Shown: positions 14,641-47,135 of the stretch, piece after piece
How the letters are laid out: every line of letters starts with the position of its first letter
How positions within the stretch are numbered: position 1 is the stretch's first letter
Origin: Opitutus sp. GAS368
GTDB lineage: Bacteria; Verrucomicrobiota; Verrucomicrobiia; Opitutales; Opitutaceae
DNA length: 55,036 nt
NCBI GenBank assembly: GCA_945871005.1
Contig: CAMBUJ010000003.1
Span: 1-55,036, forward strand
Direction of reading: 5' to 3'
Position numbers and translations under genes: made by a program
The notes under the pieces: model-generated
Databases searched by the model: none
Told to the model about the DNA's origin: nothing
Seen by the model: the letters and a program-made list of their open reading frames with translations, nothing else

Positions 14641-15242
14641 TCACAACTGAGATGAGGGCCGGAGTTGGGTATCGCCCACCCCAACCACCCCACCCCGTGC
14701 GGCCATCATCTGCCCTTCTGGGGGCCTCTAGCCCGGGGTCGGGACGATGTTTATTGGTTTTTGGTGAACCATAACTGCCGTGGTTTAGTTGCCTGAGAAT
14801 TTTGGAATCAACAAACAACGCCTCGACCCCTTCGGGATTACCTACCCCACCGGGATTACCCCGAACTTCGGTTTTTATCCCTCCACTGACCGTTTCAAAA
14901 CCCCAGAAACCGTTGATCCTTATTGTAAAACAAGAATGAAAATGCGTATCGCGCCGGCCGCGCCCGAGGGGCCATAAGCCGGCGTGGCCGGTTGGGTTTA
15001 CCGAGGTAAAAAGGGCCCAAAAGGCCGTTAAAGGGTGGGCCGCATTCGCCCCACCCTACCCAAATGGAGCTATCCGATTAGCGCCCGTTGCGGTATAGGT
15101 TCCCCGTTCAGCGACCGTTATGTACCCCCCCGCCCCTCCTCTACTTATTCCGTGTGGTTTCGTTGGCTTGCGCGCTTCTGGCGCTCCTTGCCCGGCGAAT
15201 CCCGTGCGCTCAGCAAAACCGCGTACGCATCCTCCGCTTTCC
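14641..15242. other. Non-coding gap with hairpin, upstream of the giant metalloprotease gene
   Basis: About 600 bp without a credible gene. It begins where the isomerase remnant breaks off and holds a hairpin at 15032-15057 (AGGGTGGG/CCCACCCT arms around a 10-nt loop), short G/C runs, and an AT-richer patch around 14870-14945 that could include a promoter for the downstream gene. The frame of the downstream gene is open back to 15120, but the residues there are proline/arginine-rich and lack a signal peptide, so I treat 15120-15242 as leader. Confidence 0.5.
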
Positions 15243-18200
15243 ATGAAATTTTCCTTCCGCCACAGCGCCGCATTTTTGTTCGCCCTCGTTTGCGGGCAGA
15301 CCCTTCTGGCCGATGGTGGCGGCGCGAGTGGCGGAATGACGATTTCGGAGCCCTACCCGGTGCCAACCGCGTGGAAATCAACGATCGGCACGCGCAGGTA
15401 TTTGTATATCCCTGCCGTCTATGCGGATGAGACCCAGCCGCCCGCCAGTTTGGATCAGGCTTATAGTAATATGACGGATTTCGGGCGCTTCATCCAAGAG
15501 AGCTCGGCGGGCAAGTTGAACGTCATGACCACCGTCGCGCCGTTGATGATCCTCCCGCATACGCTGACGTGGTATAACATTACCCGAATCTCGAAATTGT
15601 CGGACCCCGGCACGCATGTGCAGCAGATGGCAATGGATGCCGCCTTGGCCTTGGGTTACGACCCGTCTCAATACGATTGCGTCATCACCCGGATCAACGG
15701 CCACGCCAGCGTGATCGGCACGTCCTTCTCCTCGGGCTATCGAGTGACTTTGATTTCGGGAGGCATGGACGTGATCAATCACGAATGCGGTCACTCGCTG
15801 GGGCTCGGCCATGCTCATTGGTGGGCCACCTCGGACTCGACGTCCTCCGGCTACCGCCCACCCGATGATGTTAAGCCGTATGAATACGGCAGCATTTTTG
15901 ACGTGATGGGTGATAGCGCGGGCGTTGCCGTTGGCTTTGCCGCGCATTACGGCAGCGGGTCCAAACGCAACCCGCTGCATTGGCTCACCGACGATCAGCT
16001 TCACCTGTCCGCGCGCCCGGGCACTTACCGCATCTACGCCTGCGATCAGCCCCGTCACGTGGTCGGGCAACGCTACGGCTTGACCGTGCGCAGAAACGCC
16101 CTGCGCGAATTCCAGCTGGAATACCGCCCGGCGTGGGGCGGGTTGATGACCACGAGCGCTCTGGTGTTGTTTCAAGGCGCCGATGTCGCGACCAACTCGG
16201 GCGCGGTGGTTGACACGATGCCCGGCAGTTATGGCGGCGGCCAGGGCAAGATGGACGCTCCCATCGCGCTCGGGCGCACGTTTTCGGATTTCGAGTCGGA
16301 CGTGCATTTAACCGTGCTGGCGAAAAACGAGACTTCGCCGCCGTCCTTGGACATTCGTTACAACCGCGGCCCGTTCCCGGGCAACGTGCCCCCGCAGGCC
16401 ACCCTCGCCACCACCGCCACGACGATTGCAGTGGGCGGCAGCGTGACGCTCACCGCCACCGCCAGCGATGCCAACGGGGACGAACTCGCCTACAACTGGT
16501 CCTTCGGTGGTGAAGTGATGGGCACGAACACCCCGGTGTTCACCCGCACCTTCACGACGGCGCAGCAAGTGACCGCCATGCTCACGGTCTCAGACATGAA
16601 AGGGGGCACGGTGCGCCGCTCGGTAGTGATCAATGTCGGCGCGCATGGGAAACAACTCGTTACCGGCACGGTGAAGGTGGACGGTCAAGGAGTCGGCGGG
16701 GTGGTGGTGTATGGCAACGGTAAGGAGTGTTACTCCGACGCCGACGGCACCTACGCCCTTTCCGGCCTGAGCACCGGCAGCGCGGGTCTGGTGGCCCGCT
16801 TGCCCGGTTACAACTTGACGCCCGTTTTCACCTACCCGCTTAAAGTGGTCCCCGGCACCAACACCGCCAATTGGACCGCCCTCCCTCAGACATTTGTGAC
16901 ATTAACCGCCCTCGCCGACGCAACCGAAGGCGGCACCCCGGGCAAGCTGCGCTTGACTCGCAGCGGCGATACGACGGCGGCGTTAACCGTGTTCGTCTCC
17001 CCTCCCGAGGGCACGGCGGTGAAGGACACCGATTACACCCTTTCGCCCAACCCGGTGGTCAACGGCTGGGCCCGCGCGTTTACCATTCCCGCGGGTGCGA
17101 GTTCGCTGGATGTGGTTGTGACCGCGGCAAGCGACGGCCTCGCCGAAGGTCCGGAAACCCTCGCCCTGCAAGTGGTGACGATGACCTCAAGGGACTATTT
17201 TTCCCGCGAGGGTAACTCGGTGGTGTTGACGGTGAACGATGCCGACACCGCGTTGCCGCTAGCCGGCGTCAGCGCGACCACGGCGGATGCGCGCGAGGGC
17301 GAAGTGGGCGGCGCGGGAAGCATGACCTTTACGCGCACCGGCGCGACCGCTGCCGCGCTGGACCTCACGGTGGCCTGGTCGGGCACGGCGGCCAGCGGGA
17401 CCGACTTTAAGGCCTTGCCGACGAAGGTCACTATCCCTGCCGGGCAGAGCTCCGTCGCGGTGCTGGTCGAGCCGACGGACGATGCGGTGATCGAGACGGC
17501 CGAAACCGTGGTCGCGACCCTGAGCAGCAGCGCGAACTACCTCGCCGACCGTGCGGCCGCCGCAGCCACGGTGACAATCTGGGACAACGACACACCGAGC
17601 GTTTCTGTCTCGGTGCCGACCGCGACCACGACTGAAGGGGCGGGCGACGCCGGGGTGTTTTTACTCACCCGCACGGGCAGCACGGCCGCGCCACTCACGG
17701 TGTATTACGGCATGTCAGGCAGCGCCTTGCACGGCACCGACTATGAACGGCTTTCCGGGCAGGTCGTCATCCCAGCGGGTGCGACCACCGCCTCGGTGGC
17801 AGTGCAGGCTTACGACGACGAGAACGGAGAGTTGGACGAAACGGTTAAACTCTCGCTGGCGACCTTTAACCAGGCTTACAGCGTCGGCGCCGCCTACTCC
17901 GGCACGGTCACGATCAAGGATAACAACGACCGTCCGATGGTATCGATTCGCAAAACGCTGTATGGCGCGGGAGCCGAAGGCGGCACGACGCCGAGTTTGA
18001 CCGTCCGCTGCATCGGTAGCCGGACGGGCACGATTAACGTTCGTTATGCCTTGAGCGGCACCGCCACGCCTGGGGTGGATTACACCGCACCGTCAGGAAC
18101 CCTGACGGTGCCGGCCACTGGCACCAGCGACACCTCGATCAGTTTTCCGTTGCTTGCGGATACCCTGGCCGAGGGCACGGAAAGCATCCGCGTCACCCTG

Positions 18201-21200
18201 CTACCGTCGCCCGATTACCTGATCTCCGACGATCCCACCTTCGAGGTCACCGTGATGGATAACGACTGCGGCGATCACGTGGCCGTGACCCACTTCGCCC
18301 TCGATAATGGTACCGCTCGGGAGAACAGCCCGCGGGTCGAGCAGTTTTTCTTTTCCCGGCTCGGGTCAACGGGAGACCTGACGGTCAATTATGCCATCAG
18401 CGGCACGGCCACCAACGGCGTGGACTATGCGGAGTTGAGCGGCACCGTCGTCATTCCCGCCGGCCAAAAAAGCGCCAATGTCGATCTGCGGCCAATCGAC
18501 GACCTCCTGGCCGAGGGCAACGAGACGATCACGCTCACGGTGCAGCCCGGTGCAGGCTATGGCCCGGCGCTGCCCAATACGTCCACCATCAACCTCGCCG
18601 ACAACGAGTCGCCGGCCATCACGGTCGGCTTCGCCCAAAGCACGCTGACGACTAGCGAAATCCCCGGTCCGCTCGGCGAATACCGCGACATCCCGGTGGT
18701 GCTCTCCGCACCTTCCGCTGTCCCCATCACCGTGCAACTACGCAGTGCGGGCGGCAGCGCCCTCGGTTTCGACACCGACTGGGGCTACGCGGACGCCGCT
18801 GACGGCAACGCGCTGGTCCGCGGGCTCACCCTCACTTTTGAACCCGGGGTCACCAGTCAGCTGGCGCGCATCCGGATCCGGAACGACGGAGTGACCGAGC
18901 CGACCGAGACGGCCATTTTGGAGTTATTTCGCCCTTGGCAGGCCTCTTTGGCGGGCACCGGTAAACTCACGGTGAGCATCACCGATGCGACCGCGGGCCT
19001 GCCACCGATCCCCAACGCGGTGCGCCTGACGACGGCGGCGAGCACCCGGCTGGAAACCGCCGGCAGCGAGCCCCAGTTGCAAGTGGTGCTGGATCAGCCG
19101 GCGGGAGCCACCCCGATCACCGTGGACTACGCTGCCACCGGTACGGCCACCGCCGGCGCGGACTACACCTTCGCTCCGGGCACGCTGACCTTTGCACCCG
19201 GCGAGCAGGTAAAAACCATTCCGCTCAGCCTGCTCACGGATGCGCTCAGCGAGTCCCCGGAGAGCATCATTATCACCCTGTCCAACCCGGTCGGTGCCGT
19301 GCTCGGTGCGCCCGCCTCGCACACGATCACCCTGTTGGACTCCACCGCACCGGTGGTGGACACCGTATTTGCCGCCATCGTCACCAATCCGGCGGCCAAC
19401 TCGCTGGTTGCCACCGTCAAGGCCACTCCGGCCGCCGGGCGCAGCATCGCCAGTTGGGCTATCCTGAGCGGCAACACCGGCAACGCCTTTGCCCTCAGCG
19501 CCAGCGGCCAACTCACCGTCGCTCAACCCACCGCGCTGGCCACCGCCGGCGGCCTGCAACTCAAGGTACGCGTCACCGACAACCTCGGGGCGACCGGCGA
19601 AGGCGTGGTCAACGTCATCGTTTACACCTCCGGCATCGCGGCCGTGAGCGAGCAGCGCTGGGCCGGGTCCGCGGCGTTTGATGGTGAGAACTGGACTGCG
19701 ACCGCGCCGACTGACTCCGGCCGGCTGGCAACGCTCACCCCTGGGCAAAATGTCGCGGATAACTACTCGCGCCGACTGGTGGCGTACCTCAAGCCGCCCA
19801 CCACCGGGAACTACACCTTCTGGATCGCCGGCGATGATAAGTTCCGGCTCTACCTGAGCACCGACGGTTATGAGGCCAACAAGGTGCTAATCGGCTCGGG
19901 CCCCGCTCCGGTGCTCTTCCAAAACTGGGACAACTCCCCCCAGCAAAAATCCGCTTCGATTGCGCTGGTGGCCGGGCAAATCTATTGGATCGAAGTGCAA
20001 CAGGTGGAGAGCGGTGGCGGCGACCATGTCTCGGTCGCCTGGTCCGGTCCCGGTATCAGCCGCGTAGCGCTTCCCGCCAGCGCACTGGTCCCGGCGGTGG
20101 ACGGCTTGATTTTAACCGCGCCCGCCATCTCCCTTCCCCCCCCCAATACGGCTCCGAGCGTGAGCACGTTACCCGCGCTCACCTTGGCGGAAAACACCGC
20201 CAGCGCGCCCCTCGCGTTCACCGTGGGCGATGCCCAAACGGCGGCGACCGCGTTGGTCGTTAACGTGAGTTCGTCGAACTTCGCGTTGTTGCCCACCTCC
20301 GGCATCGTCGTGGGGGGCAGCGGGGCCAATCGCACCGTTACCCTCACGCCGCTGCCCTGGCAAAACGGCACGGCCACCGTCACCGTGGCGGTCAACGACG
20401 GCCAGGCGATCACGCGTAAGAGCTTTGTTCTCACCGTCACGCCGGTGAACGCGGCGCCGACCATCACGCCGGTGCGAGACCAGGCGATCACCCAAATCCA
20501 GTCCTATGCCACGGCCTTCATGGTCGGCGACCGCGAGACCGACCCCAGCGCGCTCACCGTGAGCGGCGTCTCCTCCGATCCGCTCCTCGTGCCCGCCGCG
20601 AACATCGTCTTCGGCGGCGGCGGGGCGAACCGCACCGTCGTGGTTACACCGGTGTCCACCCGCAACGGTACGGCGGTGATCACGCTGAGCGTGAGCGACG
20701 GCACGGCGAGCACCGCGACGACGTTTAACCTCGTGGTTGACGCCCTACCGAGCACCACCGTGTGGACGGCCACCGCCACCGGCCCGTTGCCTTGGAGCAA
20801 CGGTGCAAACTGGGACAGCGGCCGCACGCCGCCCAACAGCCGCAACTCCACCGTGGAGTTTTTCACGGGTCGAACCCTGAGCGCCGGTGCCACCACCTCG
20901 ACCAACGACACTCCGGGCGGGCACACGATGAACGTGCTCACCCTCGGCGGCAGCGGACCGGCCAGCGGCGCGTGCACGGTTTCAATCACCGGTAACGCCC
21001 TGCTGCTTGCCGGACCCGACGGCACCGATCCGGTGATCAACCTCGCGGCCACCGCCGGCACAGGGTTTGCCTACACGCTCGCTGCACCGGTCACCTTGCA
21101 AGATCCCTTGACCGTGCAAGGCGACGGCACTGCCACGTTTACCCTGAGCGGTCCGCTCAGCGGCGCGGGCGGCCTGACCAAGATCGGAGCCAGCACGCTG

Positions 21201-23270
21201 GCGCTCACCGGCGCGAACACGTATCTCGGCGGTACCCGCCTAGGTGGCGGCACGCTGGTCTTGAGTGGCGGCACTAACCGCCTGCCAACGGCGGGCGTGG
21301 TTGATTTCACCGCCACCAGCACGCTGAGCTTGGCCGGAGTGAGCCAGACGTTGGCCGACCTGAACGTGGCCAACGGTGTCACCGCCACGGTCACGGGCAG
21401 CGGCGGCACGTTGCTCCTGAACGGCGGCAGTTTCGATCTCAGCCCAACCGCCCTCGGTGTCACCCTCGACTTGTCGAAACTAGATGCGTTCGTTTTCAAC
21501 AACCCGACCGCCGCCTTCAACATCCGGCCCACCGCGGTGGACACCATCACTGCCACCCTAAAACTGGCCGCCAGCAGCCAGATTACCGCGAACGAAGTCA
21601 AGGTGGGTGACGATCCGGCCGGTTCCTCGGCCGTCGGTAACCTCAGTGAACTTGCGCTCGGTCAGACCACCCGGATCAACGCCGCCACGATCTCGATTGG
21701 CCGCAGCCGGGCGATGGGGCGCGTCAGTTTCCAGCTGGGTTTGCCCAATCCGGCGCTCACGATTCGCGGTAGCAATGGCGGACCACTCGACCGCGCGGAT
21801 CTGAACGTGAGCATGATCAACAGTGGCGGAAACGTGAATACACGCACGTCCTTGTTCGACGTCTCCGGTGGCACGCTCGACGCGATGCTCGGCACGCTGA
21901 ACGTGGGCTACAACTGGCGCGCCACCGGAACCACGCCCAACACCGGCACCGTGCTGATAGGCGCAGGCAGCCTCGACGCCACCACGGTCTATGTCGGTCG
22001 CGACGTGGCGGGTACCGGTTCGGCGGTGAAAGTGACGGGCAACTTCACGGCAAGTAATTCGCAGTTGAAAATCGGTTCGCTCATCCTTGGCACGAACTAC
22101 TTCAACACCATGTCGGCGACCGTTAACCTCAATGGCGGTAGCGTCCTGCGGGCGCAAAGTATCCAAATCGGCAACGGCTCGGCCACGCGCACGTTTAATT
22201 GGAACGACGGCACGATTAAAAACTACGATGCCGCCCTGGACCTGACGATTAGCGGCGGGTTTAACACGTTCGCGCTGCTCGGCACTGGCCTGCACGCCTT
22301 CGACATCGACAGCGGGCGCCAAGCCACGGTGACACAGGTGATTTCCAACAGCGGCTCGCTGACCAAACTCGGCTTAGGCACGCTCACGCTCAACGCATCC
22401 AACACCTACACCGGCACTACGACGGTCAGCGCCGGCACCCTGTCCCTGGCTGGCTCGCTCACCAGCAGCATCAGCAACGCCGCAACCCTCGCTCCTCAGG
22501 GCCAGGCGGTGACCAGCAAGGCCTTCACTCAAACGGGCACCGGCACCCTGCGCTTCCGCATCAACGGTACCGTTGTGGGCAGCGGTTACGACCAGCTCAA
22601 AACTCCGGGCCCGATCACGCTGGCGGGGACGCTTGAGCTCGTCGCTGTGCCCACGCTGGCCGTGGGCAATAGTTTTACGCTGATCGACAACACCGGAACG
22701 GCGACGGTCAGCGGAACCTTCGCTGGGTTACCTCCAGCGACGGCCTTTTTCGCCGACGATCAGTGGTGGAGCATCAGCTACACGGGTGGCACGGGCAACG
22801 ACGTGGTGCTGACGCGCATCTCTGCCAGCGCGTGGCAAACCTGGCAGGCGCAGAACTTCGGCGCGGCGTGGATCGATCCGTTGATCGCTGGCGACACAGT
22901 GGATTACGACCGGGATGGCCTGACCAACCTGCTCGAATACGCGCTCGGCACCGACCCGAAGGTCGCGACCGCACCGACGGCGCTGCCGCAAGCCAGTGTT
23001 GAGGCTGGTCGGCTCACCTTGACCTATAAGCGTAACACCGCCGCCACCGACCTCACGCTCATCGTGCAAGGCACCGACAGTCTCACCGGCATGTGGAGCG
23101 ATCTGGCGAAGAGCGTCAATGGAGCGGTGTCGACCGTGATCATCGTTGGCGTTCCCGTCAGCGAAACGGGCACGGGCGCGAGCCGCATCGTGAAGGTGGG
23201 TGACCGCTACCTCGCTAATGATGCCGCCCATCCGACCCGCTTCCTGCGCCTCAAAGTCGTGCGTCCTTAA
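15243..23270 (+). CDS. Giant secreted metzincin protease with Calx-beta, PA14 and PATR regions
   Basis: A 2675-residue secreted modular protein starting at the ATG at 15243 (MKFSFRHSAAFLFALVCGQ, a Sec signal peptide). In order: a metalloprotease domain with the zinc motif HECGHSLGLGHAH (about residues 180-192) and a likely Met-turn FDVMGD (about 219-224); a PKD-like domain (about 383-466); a carboxypeptidase-regulatory-like beta domain (about 468-549); about seven Calx-beta-like repeats (about 549-1370), each with an acidic DxD-type end; a cadherin-like domain; a PA14 domain (about 1466-1614, GNYTFWIAGDDKFRLYLSTD); two VCBS/Ig-like repeats (about 1633-1834); and a PATR region (about 1838-2500) with repeats like GANTYLGGTRLGGGTLVLSG. 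The last 150 residues hold a calcium-loop motif DYDRDGLTNLLEYALGTDP and a beta module. No barrel or PEP-CTERM is present. The protease head resembles gametolysin-like M11 enzymes; substrate unknown. It shares its C-terminus with the next gene. Confidence 0.85.
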   Translation: MKFSFRHSAAFLFALVCGQTLLADGGGASGGMTISEPYPVPTAWKSTIGTRRYLYIPAVYADETQPPASLDQAYSNMTDFGRFIQESSAGKLNVMTTVAPLMILPHTLTWYNITRISKLSDPGTHVQQMAMDAALALGYDPSQYDCVITRINGHASVIGTSFSSGYRVTLISGGMDVINHECGHSLGLGHAHWWATSDSTSSGYRPPDDVKPYEYGSIFDVMGDSAGVAVGFAAHYGSGSKRNPLHWLTDDQLHLSARPGTYRIYACDQPRHVVGQRYGLTVRRNALREFQLEYRPAWGGLMTTSALVLFQGADVATNSGAVVDTMPGSYGGGQGKMDAPIALGRTFSDFESDVHLTVLAKNETSPPSLDIRYNRGPFPGNVPPQATLATTATTIAVGGSVTLTATASDANGDELAYNWSFGGEVMGTNTPVFTRTFTTAQQVTAMLTVSDMKGGTVRRSVVINVGAHGKQLVTGTVKVDGQGVGGVVVYGNGKECYSDADGTYALSGLSTGSAGLVARLPGYNLTPVFTYPLKVVPGTNTANWTALPQTFVTLTALADATEGGTPGKLRLTRSGDTTAALTVFVSPPEGTAVKDTDYTLSPNPVVNGWARAFTIPAGASSLDVVVTAASDGLAEGPETLALQVVTMTSRDYFSREGNSVVLTVNDADTALPLAGVSATTADAREGEVGGAGSMTFTRTGATAAALDLTVAWSGTAASGTDFKALPTKVTIPAGQSSVAVLVEPTDDAVIETAETVVATLSSSANYLADRAAAAATVTIWDNDTPSVSVSVPTATTTEGAGDAGVFLLTRTGSTAAPLTVYYGMSGSALHGTDYERLSGQVVIPAGATTASVAVQAYDDENGELDETVKLSLATFNQAYSVGAAYSGTVTIKDNNDRPMVSIRKTLYGAGAEGGTTPSLTVRCIGSRTGTINVRYALSGTATPGVDYTAPSGTLTVPATGTSDTSISFPLLADTLAEGTESIRVTLLPSPDYLISDDPTFEVTVMDNDCGDHVAVTHFALDNGTARENSPRVEQFFFSRLGSTGDLTVNYAISGTATNGVDYAELSGTVVIPAGQKSANVDLRPIDDLLAEGNETITLTVQPGAGYGPALPNTSTINLADNESPAITVGFAQSTLTTSEIPGPLGEYRDIPVVLSAPSAVPITVQLRSAGGSALGFDTDWGYADAADGNALVRGLTLTFEPGVTSQLARIRIRNDGVTEPTETAILELFRPWQASLAGTGKLTVSITDATAGLPPIPNAVRLTTAASTRLETAGSEPQLQVVLDQPAGATPITVDYAATGTATAGADYTFAPGTLTFAPGEQVKTIPLSLLTDALSESPESIIITLSNPVGAVLGAPASHTITLLDSTAPVVDTVFAAIVTNPAANSLVATVKATPAAGRSIASWAILSGNTGNAFALSASGQLTVAQPTALATAGGLQLKVRVTDNLGATGEGVVNVIVYTSGIAAVSEQRWAGSAAFDGENWTATAPTDSGRLATLTPGQNVADNYSRRLVAYLKPPTTGNYTFWIAGDDKFRLYLSTDGYEANKVLIGSGPAPVLFQNWDNSPQQKSASIALVAGQIYWIEVQQVESGGGDHVSVAWSGPGISRVALPASALVPAVDGLILTAPAISLPPPNTAPSVSTLPALTLAENTASAPLAFTVGDAQTAATALVVNVSSSNFALLPTSGIVVGGSGANRTVTLTPLPWQNGTATVTVAVNDGQAITRKSFVLTVTPVNAAPTITPVRDQAITQIQSYATAFMVGDRETDPSALTVSGVSSDPLLVPAANIVFGGGGANRTVVVTPVSTRNGTAVITLSVSDGTASTATTFNLVVDALPSTTVWTATATGPLPWSNGANWDSGRTPPNSRNSTVEFFTGRTLSAGATTSTNDTPGGHTMNVLTLGGSGPASGACTVSITGNALLLAGPDGTDPVINLAATAGTGFAYTLAAPVTLQDPLTVQGDGTATFTLSGPLSGAGGLTKIGASTLALTGANTYLGGTRLGGGTLVLSGGTNRLPTAGVVDFTATSTLSLAGVSQTLADLNVANGVTATVTGSGGTLLLNGGSFDLSPTALGVTLDLSKLDAFVFNNPTAAFNIRPTAVDTITATLKLAASSQITANEVKVGDDPAGSSAVGNLSELALGQTTRINAATISIGRSRAMGRVSFQLGLPNPALTIRGSNGGPLDRADLNVSMINSGGNVNTRTSLFDVSGGTLDAMLGTLNVGYNWRATGTTPNTGTVLIGAGSLDATTVYVGRDVAGTGSAVKVTGNFTASNSQLKIGSLILGTNYFNTMSATVNLNGGSVLRAQSIQIGNGSATRTFNWNDGTIKNYDAALDLTISGGFNTFALLGTGLHAFDIDSGRQATVTQVISNSGSLTKLGLGTLTLNASNTYTGTTTVSAGTLSLAGSLTSSISNAATLAPQGQAVTSKAFTQTGTGTLRFRINGTVVGSGYDQLKTPGPITLAGTLELVAVPTLAVGNSFTLIDNTGTATVSGTFAGLPPATAFFADDQWWSISYTGGTGNDVVLTRISASAWQTWQAQNFGAAWIDPLIAGDTVDYDRDGLTNLLEYALGTDPKVATAPTALPQASVEAGRLTLTYKRNTAATDLTLIVQGTDSLTGMWSDLAKSVNGAVSTVIIVGVPVSETGTGASRIVKVGDRYLANDAAHPTRFLRLKVVRP
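22188..23270 (+). repeat. Copy 1 of the shared 1083-bp C-terminal module
   Basis: This segment encodes the last 360 residues of the metalloprotease protein and is collinear, with no net length difference, with 26787-27869 at the end of the next gene. Both copies carry FNWNDGTIKNYDA, GTGLHAF-IDSGRQAT, GSGYDQLKT, SYTGGTGNDVV, SAWQTWQAQNFGA and RFLRLKVVRP. Differences are scattered substitutions, many at third positions. Confidence 0.85.
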
Positions 23271-23333
23271 ACCCTTAAAAGTACCCGAACTGTTCCGTTT
23301 CGTACTCCCCACCCCACCCTTAAATACCCCTGC

Positions 23334-26300
23334 ATGTTGCCCCCAAAGACCCCGGCCCCGATTCGTGTTCCATTGGCTGCTGCTTGGCGCGGAGGCCGGG
23401 CCACCAGTCTTGCCCTGCTGTTACTCGCGGCCATCGGTAGCAGCGCGGCGCAGGCGCTGGAGTTCCACGTCGCACCCACCGGGAGTGACGCCAATCCGGG
23501 CACGGCTGTAGCGCCCTTTGCGACACCGGAGAAGGCGCGGGGCGCGATCCGCGCCTCCGTGCGCGACGGCTCTCGGCCGATCGTCTGGTTGCACGGGGGC
23601 GACTACTTCCGCACGACCGAATTTGCGCTGAGCGAATTGGATAATAACTGCATCTACCAAGCTGCGCCCAACGAGACGCCGCGCTTCATCGGCGGGGTAA
23701 AGCTCGACCCCGCCTGGTTCACACCCGTCACCTCTGCTTCGCCCGTGTGGGGCCGGCTGGCCGCCGCCGCGCAAGGCAAGGTGATGGAGGTGGACCTCGC
23801 CGCACATGGCATCACCGACTACGGCACGTTGCTGCCGCGCGGTTTCAACATGTCCAACATTGGGCCGATGGAGTTGCTGGTGAACACCAAGCCGCAGAAG
23901 CTGGCCCGCTGGCCGAATGCCGGCAGCTGGGCGACGAATACCCGAGCGGTAAACTCTACCAGCTTCACCTATAGCGGCACCCAGCCGTCGCGTTGGAGCC
24001 AGGCCGAGGAAATCTGGGTGCACGGCAATTTTTATTACGACTGGGCGGACTACGCGGTGCCCGTGACATCAATTAATACTGCCACCAGCACCATCACCGT
24101 GCCGGCGACCGCCTACGGCATCGCATCCGGCTCCCCCTATTTTGTCTTCAACCTGCTCGAGGAAATCGACACTGCGGGCGAGTACTATATCAAACGCGAC
24201 ACCGGTAAACTTTACTACTGGCCGGCCCCTGGATTTAATACAGCCGACGTGCTGGTGACGGTGATGTCGGCCAAACTGTTCAGTGTAACCAGCGCCAGCG
24301 ACATCACCGTGGATGGAGTTGAATTCGTCGGCGCGCGCAGCCGGTTGGCGCAAATCATCAGTGGCACCAATGTGGTCTTCCAGCGCTGCCGATTTCTGGC
24401 TACCGGTACGGACGCGGTCTCGATCAGCGGGACCAACAGCGGACTCTATAACTGCGAGATTGCCGATACCGGAAGCGGCGGCGTCGCCCTGGCCGGAGGG
24501 GATCGCCTCACCTTGACGCCTGGGGGCAATTACGCGCGCCAATGCCTCATCCATGATTTGAGCCGGCTTTCTTTCACCTATAACCCCGGCGTGCGCCTGA
24601 ACGGGGTGGGACAGATCGCCGAGCACTGCGAGATCTATAACAACACCCACGCGGCCATAATCTTCAGCGGCAACGACCATCGTATGGAATATAACAATAT
24701 CCATGATGTCTGTACCGCCACCAACGACGCGGGCGCTATTTATTGCGGCCGCGACTGGGGCCTGCGCGGAAACCTGATCCGCTACAATTTTATCCACGAC
24801 ATCAAGTCGAGCCTCGGCGGCGATGTGCACGCGATCTACCTGGACGACTGCGGCAGCGGCGTGACCAGCTTCGGCAATGTCATCTACCGCGTCTCCGGCC
24901 GCGCGATGCTCAACGGCGGCGGACGCGACAATATCTGGACCAACAACGTGGTGGCCAAATGCACCTATTTTCACTTCGGCGACACCCGCGGTCCGGCCAA
25001 TATCACCAACACTCCCGGCAGCTCGTGGAACCTCTTGGAAAAGCTGAACGCGGTGAACTATCAAAATCCGCCGTGGTCGACCGCCTATCCGGCGCTCGCC
25101 GCCATTCCCAACGATTATACAAAACTGGATAAATACCCCCGTGGCGTCGTCCTGTCCCGCAACGTCAGTTGGCAGAACACCAACTACATCGTCAGCACTA
25201 CCGCCGCCAGTTACTACGCCGAGAAGTTAAACAACCTCAACGGCCAGGATCCGCGTTTTGTGGACGAAGCGGCCCTCGACCTCACGCTGCGGGCGGACTC
25301 ACCCGCGCTGGCCATTCCGGGATTTCAACCGATTGCGTTCAAAGACATCGGCCGGACGGTTAGCCGGGTTACCTGGGATGCGGATGCCGGCACCCCAGCG
25401 GCCCAGGACGGCACCGGCACGTGGCGCACGGGTTCGGGCGCGAACTGGTGGAACGGTGCGGCGCAAATCTGGGACGGCGGCCTGTTTGGCTACGCCTACG
25501 CGAACCTCGGTGCGGCCGTGGGCGCGTCGCCCTTCACCGTCACGTTGGGCAGCAACGTCGCCCTGCGCGGACTCACTTTCGCCAATCAGCTCTACACCAT
25601 CGGGTCTGACCCCGGCGGCTTGTTTACCCTGACGCTCACCGACGAGGCCGTGATCACCACGGTGGCCAACGGCGTCATCGGCGCACGCATTGGCGGCGCA
25701 GGCGGGTTGGTCAAGGCCGGCGGCGGCAAACTCACCCTCTCCGGCACCAACAGCTACACCGGTACCACCACAATCGGGGGCGGAACGTTGGCGCTCAGCG
25801 GTGGCGACAACCGACTGCCCGCCACCGGCTCCGTCAACTTCAGTACCGCCGGCACCCTCGACCTCGGTTCCACCCGCCAGACGCTGGCCAAACTCACCAC
25901 GGATAACAGCGTTACAGGGACGGTTAAAGGGACCGGTGGCACGCTGGCGCTGAGCGGCGTGGCGTTCCAACTCGGCAGCGCCACCTCCAGCAGTAGCCAG
26001 ACGCTCAACCTGACGACCTTGTCCACGTTCACCTACCTCAATCCGACCCAGCCTTTTCACGTGGGTGGATTGGCTATTATCGGGAGCAACGGCGCGTCGG
26101 GGACTTTGACCGGGGCATTGACCACGACCCTCACCGCCGCGTCGGTCGGCATCGGCACGGGCGGAGTCGGCAGCAGCACGGCCAATGCGGGGACGCTGAA
26201 ATTGGGCAAGACCACCGGGATCAATACCGGCACCCTCATGATCGGTGCCAACTACCGGTCCAACGGCACGTTGCAATATCCCTCCGGGACGACGAACCCG

Positions 26301-27869
26301 ACGCTCACCCTGCGCGGCACCGACGGCGTAGCCCGCGTCACGTCCCTGCTCATCGGCGACAACAATGGCCCAACGGTGGCCACCTCCGGGACGGTGGATT
26401 TGACCACGAACGTGACCGGCGTGAGCACGCTGGATGCGCGCATCGACACGGCGGTCGTCGGGCGCAATTCGCGCACCAGCAGCGCTGGCGGCAATTTTAT
26501 TCAAGTGGCCGGCAGCTTCAGCATGGGCGCCGGTACACTCGACGTCACTGCGCTCACCATCGGCCAAGTGCTTGCCGGTTTTATTAATGGCGGGACCACT
26601 TCGTCCGCGAGCGGGACCCTGACCGTAGGCGGCGGCACCGTGAAGGTCGCCACATTAAGCCTCGGCGATCATCTCAGCGCGGCGAACGCCAATTCGGGCC
26701 CGTGCGCCGGCACCTTTAATCTCAACAGCGGCAGCACCTTGGCTGCGCAGACCATTAAAGCCGGCGCGGGTGCCAGCAACACCACCCGCACGTTTAACTG
26801 GAACGACGGCACGATTAAAAACTATGACGCGAGCACCGACCTGAATTTCGGCGCGGGTTTGACCACCTGCGCGCTGCTGGGCACGGGGTTGCACGCCTTC
26901 GCTATCGACAGCGGGCGCCAAGCCACGATCCAACAGGCGCTCTCGGGTGCAGGCGGGTTGACCAAACTCGGGATCGGCACGCTCACGCTCAACGCGGCGA
27001 ACACCTACACCGGCACCACGTCAATTGAAGCCGGCACCTTGGCCCTGGTGGGCTCGCTCACCAGCAGTATCACCAACAGCGCGGTCTTCGCGCCCCAGGG
27101 CAGCGCGGTGACGAGCGGATCGTTCACTCAAACCACGACCGGCACGCTGCAAGTTCGCATCGCCGGCACCACGGTGGGCAGCGGTTACGACCAACTCAAA
27201 ACCGCCGGCCCGGTGAACCTGGCGGGAGCGCTCGACGTGATCGCCGCGCCCGGCTTTGCGGTCGGGACCAGCTTTACACTCATCGACCAAACCGGCGCTG
27301 CGCCCGTCGCCGGGACCTTCGCCGGCCTGGCCGAAGGGACCGCGTTTTACGCCGACAGCCAGTGGTGGCGCATCAGCTACACCGGCGGCACGGGCAACGA
27401 CGTGGTGGTTACCCGCATCGCCGCCAGTGCCTGGCAAACCTGGCAGGCCCAGAACTTCGGGGCGTCCTGGGCTGATCCCTTGGTCGCCGGCGACGCGGTG
27501 GATTTCGACCGTGACGGTACCGCCAACATTTTGGAATACGCGCTCGGCACCGATCCGACCGCCACCACCTCGTCGACCGCGCTGACGCAGGCCAGTATCG
27601 AGGCCGGTCGGCTCACGTTGACCTTTAACCGCAACACGGCCGCCACCGACGTGACGATCATCGTGCAGGGAACCGACAGCCTCACCGGCACGTGGACCGA
27701 TCTGGCGAGCAGCATCAATGGGGCGGCGACGAGCGTGATCATCGGTGGCGTGCCCGTCAGCGATACCGGCACGGGCGCGAGCCGCACGGTGAAGGTGGGT
27801 GACCGCTACCTCGCGAATGATGCCGCCCATCCGTCCCGCTTCCTGCGCCTCAAAGTCGTGCGGCCTTGA
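23334..27869 (+). CDS. Secreted right-handed beta-helix (GH141-like) protein fused to PATR stalk
   Basis: A 1511-residue secreted protein. The N-terminus has a hydrophobic signal (RATSLALLLLAAIGSSAAQA) preceded by a basic stretch of about 20 residues. The catalytic-type head (about 40-680) begins EFHVAPTGSDANPGTAVAPF and has NDAGAIYCGRDWGLRGNLIR and RYNFIHDIKSSLGGDVHAIY, a pattern I associate with parallel beta-helix GH141-like alpha-L-fucosidase/xylanase proteins; pectate-lyase-like activity is an alternative. The second half is PATR repeats (GTNSYTGTTTIGGGTLALSG, AANTYTGTTSIEAGTLALVG), then a calcium-loop motif DFDRDGTANILEYALGTDP and the beta module ending RFLRLKVVRP. It follows the metalloprotease gene by 63 bp in the same direction. 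The last 1083 bp match the end of that gene without net insertions. The two are likely co-expressed. Confidence 0.85.
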   Translation: MLPPKTPAPIRVPLAAAWRGGRATSLALLLLAAIGSSAAQALEFHVAPTGSDANPGTAVAPFATPEKARGAIRASVRDGSRPIVWLHGGDYFRTTEFALSELDNNCIYQAAPNETPRFIGGVKLDPAWFTPVTSASPVWGRLAAAAQGKVMEVDLAAHGITDYGTLLPRGFNMSNIGPMELLVNTKPQKLARWPNAGSWATNTRAVNSTSFTYSGTQPSRWSQAEEIWVHGNFYYDWADYAVPVTSINTATSTITVPATAYGIASGSPYFVFNLLEEIDTAGEYYIKRDTGKLYYWPAPGFNTADVLVTVMSAKLFSVTSASDITVDGVEFVGARSRLAQIISGTNVVFQRCRFLATGTDAVSISGTNSGLYNCEIADTGSGGVALAGGDRLTLTPGGNYARQCLIHDLSRLSFTYNPGVRLNGVGQIAEHCEIYNNTHAAIIFSGNDHRMEYNNIHDVCTATNDAGAIYCGRDWGLRGNLIRYNFIHDIKSSLGGDVHAIYLDDCGSGVTSFGNVIYRVSGRAMLNGGGRDNIWTNNVVAKCTYFHFGDTRGPANITNTPGSSWNLLEKLNAVNYQNPPWSTAYPALAAIPNDYTKLDKYPRGVVLSRNVSWQNTNYIVSTTAASYYAEKLNNLNGQDPRFVDEAALDLTLRADSPALAIPGFQPIAFKDIGRTVSRVTWDADAGTPAAQDGTGTWRTGSGANWWNGAAQIWDGGLFGYAYANLGAAVGASPFTVTLGSNVALRGLTFANQLYTIGSDPGGLFTLTLTDEAVITTVANGVIGARIGGAGGLVKAGGGKLTLSGTNSYTGTTTIGGGTLALSGGDNRLPATGSVNFSTAGTLDLGSTRQTLAKLTTDNSVTGTVKGTGGTLALSGVAFQLGSATSSSSQTLNLTTLSTFTYLNPTQPFHVGGLAIIGSNGASGTLTGALTTTLTAASVGIGTGGVGSSTANAGTLKLGKTTGINTGTLMIGANYRSNGTLQYPSGTTNPTLTLRGTDGVARVTSLLIGDNNGPTVATSGTVDLTTNVTGVSTLDARIDTAVVGRNSRTSSAGGNFIQVAGSFSMGAGTLDVTALTIGQVLAGFINGGTTSSASGTLTVGGGTVKVATLSLGDHLSAANANSGPCAGTFNLNSGSTLAAQTIKAGAGASNTTRTFNWNDGTIKNYDASTDLNFGAGLTTCALLGTGLHAFAIDSGRQATIQQALSGAGGLTKLGIGTLTLNAANTYTGTTSIEAGTLALVGSLTSSITNSAVFAPQGSAVTSGSFTQTTTGTLQVRIAGTTVGSGYDQLKTAGPVNLAGALDVIAAPGFAVGTSFTLIDQTGAAPVAGTFAGLAEGTAFYADSQWWRISYTGGTGNDVVVTRIAASAWQTWQAQNFGASWADPLVAGDAVDFDRDGTANILEYALGTDPTATTSSTALTQASIEAGRLTLTFNRNTAATDVTIIVQGTDSLTGTWTDLASSINGAATSVIIGGVPVSDTGTGASRTVKVGDRYLANDAAHPSRFLRLKVVRP
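26787..27869 (+). repeat. Copy 2 of the shared 1083-bp C-terminal module
   Basis: Direct repeat of 22188-23270, about 4.6 kb downstream, forming the end of the beta-helix protein. Equal length and gap-free protein alignment point to duplication of a whole module (or gene conversion) followed by divergence, with the reading frame kept under selection. Confidence 0.85.
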
Positions 27870-37167: not shown

Positions 37168-37561
37168 AAGCAGAAGCGGCGTGCACCGTGTTTTGATACG
37201 TTTGAATGCGAAATGGTATGAAACCCTTCGACGGCTCGGGTTTTCTACCTCGCAATCCACTGAAATCGTCAAAGAACCAAATCTGGGGTTCGACTGCTTT
37301 TCCGGGTTTAACGGTGGTTCACCCCTGACGATGTCCGGCCGCTGGCCGATTACCCGCGCGGACCGATTTGTTCAAGTTTCCGGCCGACGTGCCGATGATA
37401 GCAATAACCACTTATGAATGCATCTGAGCGCTTAAACTCATCTCATCCTCCATCCCCCAGCCTAGGCTAATTCACGCGGTTACGCGTTTTTTTGGTTTTC
37501 TCCCCCCGCCGCCGCGTTTTTTAGCCACCCCTCTCGTCCAAGCGATCGTTTGTTCGCTGGT

Positions 37562-40500
37562 ATGTTCAACCCCACCCCATTCCGCCTCTTCGCCGCTCTG
37601 GTCGTCGCCGGGCTGGGCTTTGCCGTGCCGTCGGCGCGGGCCACCACCTTCGACTGGTCGGGCGCCACCAGCGGCAATATGTCGGGCACCACCGCGAACT
37701 GGGGCGGGACCGTGCCCACCGGCACGGACGTCGCCCGCTTTAACTCGTCCCTCTACACCAATGCGCCCACGGCCAACGCCAACCTGACCCTCGGCGAGTT
37801 GCTCTTCGATGCGGGCAACACGGCTGGGGTTACCTTCGGTTCGGGTTCCAGCACGCTCACCCTCAACGGCATTGCCGGCGTCGGCCTCCAGCTCAACAGC
37901 GGCTCAGGGGCGGTCAGCACCGGCAGCGCCAAGTTCGCCCTCGCTGCGAGCCAGTCCTGGCAGAACGATTCCTCCAGCGCGCTCACCGTGGGCGGCACGA
38001 TCACCAAAACCGGCAACGTCAGCCCCTTCACGCTCACGGTGGGTGGCGCGGGCAACACCACTCTCTCCGGCATCATCAGCAACGGCGGGGCCACCGGTAC
38101 CCTGGCATTGGTCAAAAACGACGCGGGCGCGCTCACCCTCTCCGGCGCCAACACCTTCACGGGCGGGGTCACGTTGAACGCGGGAACCTTGAACATCAAC
38201 AGTACGGGCTCCGCAGGTACCAGCGGCCCGCTCGGCAACGGAGGCACCTTTACGATCAACGGAGGCATCATCGACAACACCAGTGGCTCGTCCAAGACGG
38301 TGGCAAACCTCAACCCGATCACCCTTGCCGGCGACTTCGCCTTCAGCACCGGGGCCGGCACCAGTAGCAACAACCTGAGTTTGGGCGGGGCGGTCACCAT
38401 GGGGGCCAGCCGAACGATTACCACCAACGGCTCAGGCACGTTGACCTTCAGTGGTGCGATCGGCGATGGCGGTAACACCTATGGTCTGACCAAGACCGGC
38501 GCCGGCACCCTGACCCTCTCCGGGGCCAACACCTTCACCGGCGGGGTGACGATCCAGCAGGGCACGTTGAAACTGGGTAACGCGGCCGGTTTGGGTGGTT
38601 CGGCCGGCGTGGTATCCGTGACCAGCGGGGCGGTCTTGGATCTCAATGGCCAGACCGTGGTCAACACCAATGCCCTGACCCTGAATGGCACGGGCATCAG
38701 TAACGCGGGCTCCCTGATCAACAGCAGCGCAACCCAAGCCAATTACGCGGGTGCGGTGACCCTGGGCTCGGCCGGTACGACCATCGGTGGGGCGGGAGAT
38801 ATTCAACTCAACGGGGGCGTTTCGGGTAGCACCTCACTGATCAAGGTCGGCAGCGGCTCCCTCCTTATTGGCGCCGCATCGACCTATACGGGTGACACCT
38901 ACGTCAATGCGGGGAGTGTGGTGACGCGCCTATCGGGCACCTTCATTGGAACGATTTATTTGGGCGAGGCCGGCAGCAGCAATGCGGCGACCTTTCAATC
39001 GGGATCTGTGAGCCAGACTATTTCGAATCCGTTTGGTTTGGTGGCGGGGGCCACGGGCACCCTGGGGCTCGGGACTTTCGGCGGTGCTTCTACACCGACC
39101 TTCACCGGAGGGGTGACTGGCACGAACCATTTGACCATCGTGAGTGGCACTACCGTGACCTTCAACACGGGGGCCATAGACCATGCGGGGACCTTGACCA
39201 ACACAGGTGCCTCCATCTCGTTGGTGATCGGTACCAGCTCCATCACCAACAAGGTCACCGGGCTGATCCAAAACAAGAGCGGGAGCACGCTGCAAATCAA
39301 CAACGCCAACACGGCCTTTTTCGGTGACACCACGGTTACGCTTGGAACCCTTAACCTCAGGAATACGAATTCGCTGCAGAACAGTGTCCTGAATATGAAT
39401 GGCGGTACGGTGACCTTCGGCACGAGCACGGCATCGGCCATCACCTCGGTTGCGCTCGGCGGCCTGGCCGGTTCGGGCAACATCAATCTCAACAACACGC
39501 TCACCGTCCCGACGGCGGTGGCGCTGACGATCGGCAACAGCAACGCCGCCAACGGCAGCGGCACCAGCCCGAACACCCTCAACCCGACCTACTCGGGGGT
39601 GCTGAGTAACACCAACGGCGCCGCCAGTCTGACCAAGGTCGGCAGCAACACACAGACCCTCGCCGGCGCCAACACCTATACAGGCGTGACCACGGTGACC
39701 GGGGGCACGCTGGCCTACACCCAGGCGGGCAACGGCGGGGCGGCCGGCGGGCTCGGGCAGTCCAGCGCGGCCGCTGCCAGCCTGTTGCTGGGCAACGGCA
39801 CCACCCTCAGTTACACCGGCTCGGGCGGCAGCACCGATCGGCTTTTCACCCTCAACGGCACCTCCGCCGGTGAGGGCGCGACCCTCGACGCCTCCGGTTC
39901 CGGCGCCATTACCTACACCGCCACCGGAGCGCTCGCCTACGGCACCGCCAACCAAACGCGCACCCTCACCCTCGGTGGCAGCAACACCGGGGCCAACTCC
40001 CTCGCCGCCCTTCTCGCCGACAACGGCAGCGGGGCCCTCAGCTTGACCAAGTCCGGCGTCGGCAGCTGGGCGCTCTCCGGCACCAACAGCTACACCGGCG
40101 GCACCACCCTCAACGCCGGCACTCTGGCCTTTACCACCGGAGGACTGGGGACCACCGGAACGGTTGATTTTGGCGGCAACGCCACGCTCCAATTCGGCGC
40201 GGCCACCACCACCGATCTGTCCTCGCGCCTGGGGATCGCAAATGGCGTCACCGCCACCTTCGACACCAACGGCAACGCCGTGACCTTCGCCAGCGGTATC
40301 GGCTCCTCCGGTACCGGCGCGCTGACCAAAGCCGGCACCGGAACCCTGACCCTGTCCGGGGCCAACAGCTACACCGGCACCACCACGGTTTCGGCCGGGG
40401 TGTTAAACATCCAACACGCCACCGCCCTCGGCTCCACCGCCGCCGGCACCACCGTCTCCTCGGGCGCGGCCTTGCAGCTCCAGGGTGGAATCAACATCGG

Positions 40501-43500
40501 CACCGAGGCGCTGACCCTTTCGGGTCTTGGCGTGGGTGGCAGCGACGGTGCCCTGCACAACATCTCCGGCTCCAACAGCTACGGCGGAGCCCTCACCCTG
40601 GCGGCCGCCACCCGGATCAATTCCGACGCCGGCACGCTCACCTTGACCAACACCGGCACGCTGACCGGCTCCGGCTTCGATCTGACGCTCGGCGGCAGCG
40701 GCGACATCGTGGTGGACCGCAGCATCGCCACCGGCGTTGGCAATTTGATCAAAGACGGCACGGGCTCGGTGACGCTCAACGCGGCCAACTCCTTCACTGG
40801 CACGACCACCATCAGCGCCGGCACGCTCAAGCTCGGGGTGGCCAACGCGCTCGCTTCGACTTCGGCTATTTTTATCAACAACGCGGCTGGCGCGGTCCTC
40901 GACCTTAACGGGTTTGACGTCGAAATCGGCTCGCTCGCCGGTGGCGGCACCGCAGGCGGCGGGGTCAGCCTGGGCAGCACCACGTTGACGGTCGGCGGCG
41001 ACAACAGCTCGACGACCTTCGCCAGCAACCTGACCGGCACCGGCGGTCTAACCAAGGTCGGCACGGGCACCTTTACCCTAACCCAGGCCAACGCCTTCAC
41101 CGGAGCGACCACCGTCTCCGCCGGTACGCTCGCCTTTAACGCCGCCGCCGCCCTCGGCTCGACCTCGGCGATCAACTTGGCCGACACCACCACACTCACC
41201 TACACGGGCGGCACCACCACCTTCGATCGCGACCTCGCGGTCACTGGCGGCACCGGCTTCTTGCGCAACACCGGCGGCGGCACGCTCACCCTCTCCGGCA
41301 TTCTCACCAAAAGCGGCACCACCCTGACTTTTGCCCAGGGCCTGTTCGACGTGACCGGCACGATCGCCGGCGCGAGCGCCAACTCCGATTTGGTGATCGA
41401 CGGCGCCACCGTGACGCTCAGCCATGCCAACACCTACAACGGCCCGACCTCCCTGAAAAACGGAGCCAGCCTCACCGCCGCGGTCGTCGGCGCGCTGCCC
41501 ACCGCCACGCGCAGCGCGCTGTCCCTCGACGCCACCGGCTCCGGCTCGTCCACAATCACCTTCGGGGCCGACCAGGCGGTCGCCTCGCTCAACGGCGCTG
41601 CCAGCTCGACGGTCGATCTCGGCGCGCATGCGCTGACGGTCGGCACGACCAGCGGCTCGACCGCCTTCGCCGGCGTGCTCAGCGGCGCCGGCGGTTCACT
41701 GGTCAAAGACGGAGCCAGCGCCCTCACCTTAACGGGGCTGAACACCTACACCGGCGCGACCACCGTTTCCGCCGGCACCCTTACCCTCAACGCTGCCGGC
41801 GGGGCGCTCGCCCACACCAGTGGTCTCACGATCGCCGGCACCGTCTCCCTCGGCGCGGCCAACCAGATAAAAAACACGTCTAACCTGAACCTCAATGGTG
41901 GCACCTTGGCGCTCAACGGTTTTGACCAAACCCTCGGCTCCCTTGATTTGAATGCCAATTCCACGCTCGATCTGAGCGGCTCCGCGGACCTGGTTTTCGC
42001 CGACAGCTCAGGGTTCGATTGGAATTCCGCGACGCTAACGGTCCTCAACTTCTCGGCCTCCACCAACACGCTGCGCTTCGGCACCGCCGCTACCGGCCTC
42101 ACCGCCACCCAGCTCGCGCTGTTCCGCTTCCTCGGGTTCGGCAACTCGGAGGCCCGCATCGACGCCGACGGTTTTCTAGCCCCGCTCTCGCCTCACTACC
42201 TCAACTCCGGTGGCACCGACTTCGTGATTTCCCCCGCGATCACCGGCACCACCACCGTCACCCAATCCGGCACCGCCAGCACCACGTTGACCGGCGCCAA
42301 CACCTCCACCGGCCTGGCCAGCGTCATCCAAGGCACCCTGGTGATCGGCACGGCGGCCGGCGGCAACTGGGCGGGCGATGTCACCGTCTCCGGCACCGGC
42401 ACGCTCAAGGGCCGCGGCACCATTACCGGGGCGGTCGTGCTGGATTCAGCCGGCACCTACAGCCCGGGCAACTCGCCCGCCATTCAGAACGTCGGTTCGC
42501 TCACGGTGAATTCGGGCAGCTTCGTCACGATCGAACTCGACGGCGCCACCGCCGGTAACGGCGCGGGCTTCCACGATCAAATCGTCTCCGCCGGTGCGGT
42601 GACCTTGAACGGCGGCACCTTGAGCGGTGCGACGATTTTTGCCGGTTCGAGTGCGCTGGCCTACGTTCCCGCTTTCGGCGCCAGCCATACGATCATCACC
42701 GGCAGCGCGATCACGGGGACCTTTGCCGCCTATAATTTTGCCATCGCCTCCAACGCCGCCGGGGTGACCTGGCTGCCCGAATACACCGCCACGGCGGTCA
42801 ACCTCTTCGCCGTGCCGGACAACTACGCCACCCTCGCCGGACTCACCCCGACCCAGACGCGGCTCGGCGCCGCCCTGCAATCCTTCCGCCCCGCGCAGAT
42901 CGACCACCGCACCGCGACCACCGCCACCGGCACGCTCTTTAACGGCCTCATGCGCCTGGACCTCGCCGGCCTGCGCACCGCCTACGACCAGCTCAGCCCG
43001 GAAAAACTCACCGCGTTGGCCGCCGTCACTTTTCAGAGCTCGTCGCTGTTAAACTCCAGCCTGCTGACCCGCAGCGCCGAACTGCGCCGGGTCGGGCCGG
43101 CCTCGGTCAGTTTGAACGGCGTGGCGGTTCCGGCGTCGGCGGAAGAGTTCACGATGGAAACGGTGATCGAGGACGGCGTGTATTACCAAATCTCCAAGGC
43201 CAAGCCGAAGAAACGCGTGGGCTATTTTGCCGGCGCCAGCGGCGCCTTTGCGGCGGTCGATGGCACGGCCAACCGGCTGGGCTCATTCTCGCAAACCGGC
43301 GCTGGTTACGGCGGCCTGGATTACACCGTAAATGAAAACCAGTCGCTGGGTCTGGTGGTGAGCCAGACGCTGACCGACACCGATTTCGCCGGTGCCAGCG
43401 GCAGTGCCCGCACCACGACCAGTCGGCTGGGGGTGTTTCACGATTACCACCGCGATGGGTTTTATCTGAACAGCTCGGCGTCGGTCGGGTTCTCGTCGTA

Positions 43501-46729: not shown

Positions 46730-47135
46730 AAAACGAGGCCTACCGTGGCTTACGCACTAGTTGGATCAAGCCTGTATTCCGCTTGGCACGGGGCCTGACT
46801 TGAGGTCGGGGTTGAACCACAAAAAAACGGCAGACCCGAACGTTGGCCGGGGCAGTGGGCGAGCCGTCGAGCCGGTAAACCACTAATGGAAACGGATGGG
46901 CATTCATTATTCAACGCCACCTGCCGCAGGTGGTTTTCGGGTCTTTTCGTGGTGTTCATGGGCAAAAACCGGCCACCGGACGCGGCCGTTCTTATGTTAG
47001 GGTAATGGGGGGCTTTAGTTTTTGCGGACCCGGGCGCTAAGGCTGGGGCGTGAAATTTCATCCCGTTTACCTCACTGCCGCCCTCCGGCGTTAAAACCGC
47101 GTCCACCGCCATCCACGTCCCTTAATACTTTCATT
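46730..47135. promoter_or_regulatory. Divergent intergenic region between lacI-type gene and PEP-CTERM gene
   Basis: This 406-bp gap must hold promoters for both divergent genes. It contains the symmetric element at 46917-46933 and a CACGAAAA-type short repeat just right of it (on the minus strand), also seen at 50386-50402. The remainder shows no obvious operator. Confidence 0.45.
46917..46937. promoter_or_regulatory. Perfect palindrome CCACCTGCcGCAGGTGG followed by TTTT
   Basis: Arms of 8 bp around a single central C, followed by TTTT on the plus strand. In a divergent promoter region next to a LacI-family gene it could be an operator. The single-base loop makes an RNA terminator unlikely, since a hairpin would have to open some pairs. 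Confidence 0.4.

Follow-up and report, generated by a model that had tools for sequence, protein, structure and literature searches.

A C-terminal module on two giant proteins of Opitutus sp. GAS368 is a candidate sorting or attachment domain of Verrucomicrobiota with an exosortase

The stretch of DNA considered here, called the window, is 55,036 nucleotides long and covers positions 1 to 55,036 of contig CAMBUJ010000003.1 of the verrucomicrobial genome Opitutus sp. GAS368 (assembly GCA_945871005.1). It encodes two giant proteins, P0001 and P0002, which have different heads and end in the same C-terminal module. A preliminary description of the window took this shared end to be the natural candidate for export or surface attachment. 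The features of the two genes are as follows.

15243..23270, plus strand, P0001: zincin-like head, PKD, Calx-beta repeats, PA14, PATR repeats and C-terminal module
21174..23267, plus strand, segment of P0001 homologous to P0002 (residues 2019-2716)
21174..21263, plus strand, PATR repeat of P0001
22359..22448, plus strand, PATR repeat of P0001
22821..23267, plus strand, C-terminal module of P0001, 149 residues (AlphaFold2 mean predicted local distance difference test, pLDDT, 97.3)
22902..22937, plus strand, EF-hand-like loop DYDRDGLTNLLE of P0001 (module residues 28-39)
23241..23261, plus strand, last beta-strand FLRLKVV of P0001 (module residues 141-147, two residues before the stop)
23334..27869, plus strand, P0002: right-handed beta-helix head, PATR repeats and C-terminal module
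25707..27866, plus strand, segment of P0002 homologous to P0001 (residues 792-1511)
25707..25796, plus strand, PATR repeat of P0002
26958..27047, plus strand, PATR repeat of P0002
27420..27866, plus strand, C-terminal module of P0002
27501..27536, plus strand, EF-hand-like loop DFDRDGTANILE of P0002
27840..27860, plus strand, stretch of P0002 equivalent to FLRLKVV by alignment

It is clear that the similarity of the two tails is far beyond chance. The stretches at 22188-23270 and 26787-27869 are collinear and free of gaps, as first described, with 75% identity over 360 aligned residues. The extent given for the shared module has to be revised in both directions. The 360-residue tail is real, but the homology is longer, with 724 alignment columns at 56% identity and 30 gap positions (BLASTP 655 bits), and the unit that is widespread is shorter. 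Because the homology reaches beyond the tail, part of the PATR stalk is common to P0001 and P0002 as well. The same tail is found on two further giant proteins of this genome, encoded on contigs C70 (80% DNA identity) and C117 (68%).

Most of the other early assignments stand. Pfam supports both the PATR repeats (E 8e-11 and 4e-15) and the beta-helix head of P0002 (PF13229, E 6.9e-12), and the calcium-loop motif is there as well. The metzincin label for P0001 fares less well. The motif HECGHSLGLGH can be read, but the library matches are under the cut-off (Reprolysin_4, E 0.019; M6 domain, E 1e-4). The longest open reading frame (ORF) of P0001 opens at 15120, and by eye the Met at 15243 starts a signal-peptide-like stretch; the N-terminus of P0002 is also signal-peptide-like by eye. 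In Pfam and NCBIfam scans neither protein has a barrel or PEP-CTERM family, which agrees with the preliminary description (PF03797 gave no match at E up to 1), and no named family covers the last 150 or so residues of either one.

The widespread unit, which recurs on unrelated heads, consists of only the last 130-150 residues or so, and the PATR part before it belongs to the stalk. A profile built from the last 150 residues found 15 matches in the same genome at E up to 10, and 13 of these are proteins with the module. The two discarded matches were a glycosyltransferase by eye (L030, E 0.146) and a 57-residue frame (L031). For this genome 14 matches enter the copy count and 13 were examined. 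Among the loci, L032 was removed as a duplicate of L021, and L062 is terminal but lies outside the member alignment under the motif rule. The layout of the module is a Trp, an EF-hand-like loop of the form DxDGDGxxNLLEYALGxDP and a beta part ending in RFLRLxV. The residues that define the fold and the terminal position are kept in 74 named sequences that are 21-43% identical to the window copy.

What is this domain called elsewhere? In Pfam, NCBIfam and the searched literature it has no name. Scanning of 76 members at E up to 0.1 revealed no recurrent Pfam family that covers the module outside the loop. The TSP3 repeat PF18884 is matched by 16 of the 76 (best E 2.5e-6), and 16 other Pfam families, fn3 included, match one or two members each (E 0.006 to 0.1). 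The window copy has a single loop and scores E 0.06 against the TSP3 model, with 13.7 bits at a cut-off of 25. Loops are also the route by which the module profile hits PDB sequences (the best 60 of 179). Among NCBIfam families the Amuc_1099 pilus-like family NF042425 is matched by 23 of the 76 members (best E 3.1e-6), beside a few rarer matches. NF042425 was considered as a link to a secretin system and dropped, the likeness being taken as that of a shared loop. When 10 members were rescanned seven matched; in six the match was confined to the surroundings of the loop (residues 16-52), and in the seventh it covered residues 12-84. The module loop resembles about positions 123-156 of 321 in that family. 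Literature searches, motif letters included, turned up no description recognisable as this domain, with most subscription papers outside their coverage. The module would thus be a new variant among known C-terminal sorting domains.

To measure how close the module lies to the chain end, all copies were rescored with one profile, and the residues between the match and the stop were counted. The C-terminal confinement that had been predicted is found in 125 of 131 copies, which end 25 or fewer residues from the stop (median 2). This applies to 12 of 13 copies in the genome of the window (the exception has 34 residues more), 29 of 29 best matches from other genomes, 75 of 79 named loci, seven of eight copies in G251 and two of two in G113; L089, which runs off its contig, was left out of the count. 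The one G251 copy scored as non-terminal (L161) has a match that ends early, at model position 98; by eye the 27 residues that follow complete the module. The profile gives no credit for a stop codon, so terminal position is not built in. In 66 of 74 carriers a loose F-x-R motif for the last strand begins at a distance of 7-12 residues from the chain end; it lies at other distances in four and is absent from four. Of the 74 carriers, which are interrelated, 31 end in Pro, versus 62 of 550 neighbouring ORFs.

The named loci are the best 80 of at least 183 confirmed and were picked by the loop pattern, so that conservation of the loop cannot be read from them. In 44 copies not selected in this way the loop ligands are retained in 38. 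Record titles assign 76 of the 80 to Verrucomicrobiota, taken broadly so as to include Lentisphaerae and Pontiella, one to the PVC group and three only to bacterium. Plasmid and phage searches with single module sequences gave no match. A signal-peptide-like start was predicted for 59 of the 65 carriers with a complete start versus 126 of 369 neighbouring ORFs (p 2e-18), by a crude rule that allowed any start within the first 100 codons. Diversity of heads had been predicted too, and at E up to 1e-5 matches to 70 Pfam families, with overlapping ones counted separately, were found in 50 of 74 heads. CotH, lamin-tail, subtilase, zinc carboxypeptidase, NHL, PhoX, endonuclease I and rhamnogalacturonan lyase are among the matches listed.

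The fold of the module could be predicted with confidence. An AlphaFold2 model of the window copy, built with 76 sequences, has the mean pLDDT given above and a predicted template modelling score of 0.89. It contains helices at residues 4-18, 20-23 and 36-42, and strands at 57-61, 64-72, 79-85, 93-99, 113-116, 121-131 and 141-147. In other words, the module is confidently predicted to be a Trp helix and an EF-hand-like loop followed by a seven-strand immunoglobulin (Ig)-like sandwich, with the last strand (RFLRLKV) at the C-terminus. Foldseek found nothing in the PDB at E up to 1e-3, and its top rows were antibodies, nanobodies and other Ig-type proteins. The nearest solved folds listed are fibronectin type III (FnIII)/Ig domains with Z at most 7.0, the best being cytokine-receptor extracellular domains. 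Such matches indicate a fold class and say nothing about function, the arrangement being a common one. A prediction for the 360-residue tail from two sequences was uninformative (pLDDT 32.8).

The main argument for a role in sorting comes from the PATR stalks of this genome. Among its 24 ORFs with PATR matches, five end in an autotransporter barrel (two of these shortened and assigned by eye), 10 in PEP-CTERM (all also matched by PF07589) and six in the module, while two run off the contig and one has none of these ends. The window alone shows all three ends, its other two examples being as follows.

37466..44029, plus strand, comparator PATR protein with an autotransporter barrel end
47019..49895, plus strand, comparator PATR protein with a PEP-CTERM end

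A barrel is an exporter and PEP-CTERM is a sorting signal. Since both sit on the same stalks as the module, a comparable role can be argued for the module. Of the PATR autotransporters of the genome, two (L143 on contig C39 and L014 on contig C20) stop, by eye, inside an apparent barrel region, so that their barrels seem to be cut short. The PATR ORF with neither a barrel nor a PEP-CTERM or module end lies in the window (44257-45552, minus strand).

The next line of evidence is the distribution of the module across 288 genomes of the phylum. Matches at E up to 1e-3 occur in 194 of them, and 24 of these 194 are exosortase-negative. Ten of the 24, those with at least two matches, were inspected. 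One (G113) has two full-length modules; the other nine have no match that spans the model, and the 12 matches read there are loop or TSP3-like. The loop-only proteins that were read in exosortase-negative genomes have no sandwich. Because weak matches are often loop-only, a strong module was defined by a best E up to 1e-11. This cut, which 99 of the 288 genomes pass, was chosen after the weak matches had been inspected and is based on the E of the best match.

With this definition the predicted co-occurrence with a sorting gene is found. Exosortase (PF09721) is present in 214 of the 288 genomes, namely 98 of the 99 with a strong module versus 116 of the 189 others. Without the strong cut the figures are 170 of 194 genomes with a match versus 44 of 94 without. 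At the level of families, strong modules occur in 29 of 53 families with exosortase versus none of eight without it (p 0.005), with labels assigned by hand and one of the 53 resting on a weak match. Within genus g28, which may be Akkermansia and comprises 22 of the genomes, modules are found in 10 of 15 exosortase-positive genomes versus one of seven negative ones (p 0.06). This one is G113, the sole exosortase-negative genome with a strong module. It has two terminal modules, and PEP-CTERM is matched 18 times in it but not once in the four exosortase-negative g28 genomes examined beside it. Perhaps G113 lost its exosortase recently, or the gene was missed. Its two modules are without the acidic loop ligands.

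The GspD secretin (TIGR02517, E 1e-20) is found in 273 of 288 genomes, including all 99 with a strong module versus 174 of the 189 others (p 0.002). It is near universal, and the 99 of 99 therefore carries little weight. In genus g28 the eight genomes without a GspD-like secretin at the same threshold are all without a strong module, and 11 of 11 module genomes have the secretin. T2SSK (PF03934) was tried as a marker of the type II secretion system (T2SS) and found uninformative. Its matches are weak, occur in 96 of 288 genomes and are also seen in seven of 14 control genomes, including B. subtilis and Lactococcus.

Three known kinds of C-terminal end invite comparison. The first is the C-terminal domain (CTD) of the type IX secretion system (T9SS). 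The CTD of RgpB is described as a seven-strand Ig-like sandwich in which the signal for export lies in the last two strands, the final one being indispensable (PMC4804311). The module resembles such a domain in lying at the extreme C-terminus, in its predicted seven-strand sandwich, in its many copies per genome and in being carried by predicted Sec-exported proteins with different heads. It differs in having a Trp helix and an EF-hand-like loop before the sandwich. At E up to 0.1 the 76 members match 17 Pfam and 12 NCBIfam families, none of them a T9SS CTD profile; such models are presumably included in these libraries. One member matches PorE, a model of a T9SS component (E 0.017). SprA (PF14349) is found in none of the 288 genomes and in none of the 14 controls, so this search is without a positive control. 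The structural-match rows listed contain no T9SS CTD, which excludes nothing.

The second is PEP-CTERM. Like the module, it is a C-terminal tag of high copy number whose carriers have signal peptides and diverse heads, and it occurs on the same type of stalk in the same genome with an overlapping phylogenetic profile. Unlike it, the module, by prediction, folds into a soluble domain of about 130-150 residues. A PEP motif, transmembrane helix and basic tail were not seen in 74 module sequences, and PF07589 is not among the Pfam matches of the 76 members. PEP-CTERM was itself linked to EpsH through matching phylogenetic profiles (PMC1569441). The third is the autotransporter barrel of the type Va secretion system with its PATR passenger. 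Here the likeness is that the module also follows PATR repeats at the C-terminus, and the difference is that it is predicted to be a small Ig-like sandwich and not a barrel. The DxDGDGxxNxxEY loop links the module to TSP3 (PF18884) and EF-hand loops as well, but only this loop of about 20 residues is in common.

Taken with the position of the module, the diversity of its heads, the way it alternates with barrel and PEP-CTERM ends on one kind of stalk and its co-occurrence with exosortase, these comparisons narrowly favour the idea that the tail serves as a sorting or attachment domain at the C-terminus, in lineages with an exosortase surface system, similar in design to the type IX CTD and belonging to a different family. 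Position, signal-peptide-like starts, heads and co-occurrence support in part the candidate put forward at the outset, while its causal role in export or attachment is one that we infer. A possible sequence of events is that Sec exports the module proteins, as their signal peptides predict, and that the last 130-150 or so residues fold into the Ig-like sandwich with its Trp helix, in most copies a calcium-type loop, and a final strand at the chain end. Recognition of the folded tag might then take place in the periplasm or at the outer membrane, followed by transfer to an outer-membrane exporter, for which a secretin of the T2SS or type IV pilus kind is the most available candidate. Finally, the protein would be retained in the surface layer of the exosortase/PEP-CTERM system. 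A bolder version can be offered only tentatively. It holds that an undescribed Verrucomicrobiota route of export or attachment, dependent on exosortase/PEP-CTERM, recognises the module as a folded, type-IX-like tag, with the module proteins as a second, soluble class of clients of the same surface layer, numbering about 150 or more in the richest genomes counted.

Several observations weigh against a sorting or attachment domain of this kind. No signature ties the module to a known exporter, and we infer the recognition, the exporter, and the export and attachment of the module proteins. The exosortase link is a correlation confounded by ancestry, its counts being uncorrected for relatedness. 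Exosortase is not sufficient, since 116 of 214 genomes that have it lack a strong module. The autotransporter barrel also correlates with the module, if less strongly (55 of 99 strong-module genomes versus 37 of 189 others). No gene regularly adjoins the module genes, the largest cluster of neighbours being present at five of 74 loci. Four of the 79 named copies are internal, with at least 230 residues after the module (L069, L075, L095 and L135). Finally, the loop ligands are lost in six of the 44 copies mentioned above, so calcium is not essential.

What if the module retains proteins without sorting them? In this scenario, which we consider rather unlikely, carriers leave the cell by a general route such as the T2SS and are held afterwards through binding of the Ig-like module to exopolysaccharide or some other polymer of the surface. 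No linear tag is known to be required by the T2SS. Binding is a common function of Ig/FnIII-like folds (best PDB match Z 7.0), polymer-degrading enzymes are among the heads, and the exosortase with which the module co-occurs is itself tied to exopolysaccharide production (PMC1569441). However, a binding domain should be able to sit anywhere, and the module is terminal in 125 of 131 copies with its last strand near the stop. A less probable alternative, to be called unlikely outright, is a folding or stability cap that closes a beta-helix or Ig chain at the C-terminus and protects it from proteases, with no part in export or attachment. The module is predicted to be compact and well ordered, and in P0001 and P0002 it follows the PATR region without a long linker, as a cap might. 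Nevertheless, the heads differ in fold, PEP-CTERM or a barrel takes the place of the module on other PATR stalks in this genome, and the exosortase profile is left unexplained. Very improbable is a lineage-specific domain spread by duplication, with no common function and a terminal position that is a by-product of 3'-end exchange between genes: tail copying does occur, as the four copies of this genome with long similar tails indicate, but fold-defining residues and terminal position persist at the low identities of the 74 named sequences, in genomes of 29 families.

A sorting or attachment domain would bear on a wider problem, for how Verrucomicrobiota move very large secreted enzymes and adhesins out of the cell and hold them there is not worked out in the searched literature. 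The module is a direct handle for finding the machinery. One domain that marks up to about 150 or more such proteins in a single genome would also allow a large share of the surface proteome to be listed from sequence; in seven chosen genomes the copies number 14, 16, 78, 88, at least 146, at least 147 and at least 149. Targeted mutagenesis of Verrucomicrobium spinosum, a member of the phylum, has been published (PMC12283558), which makes the sorting or attachment idea testable.

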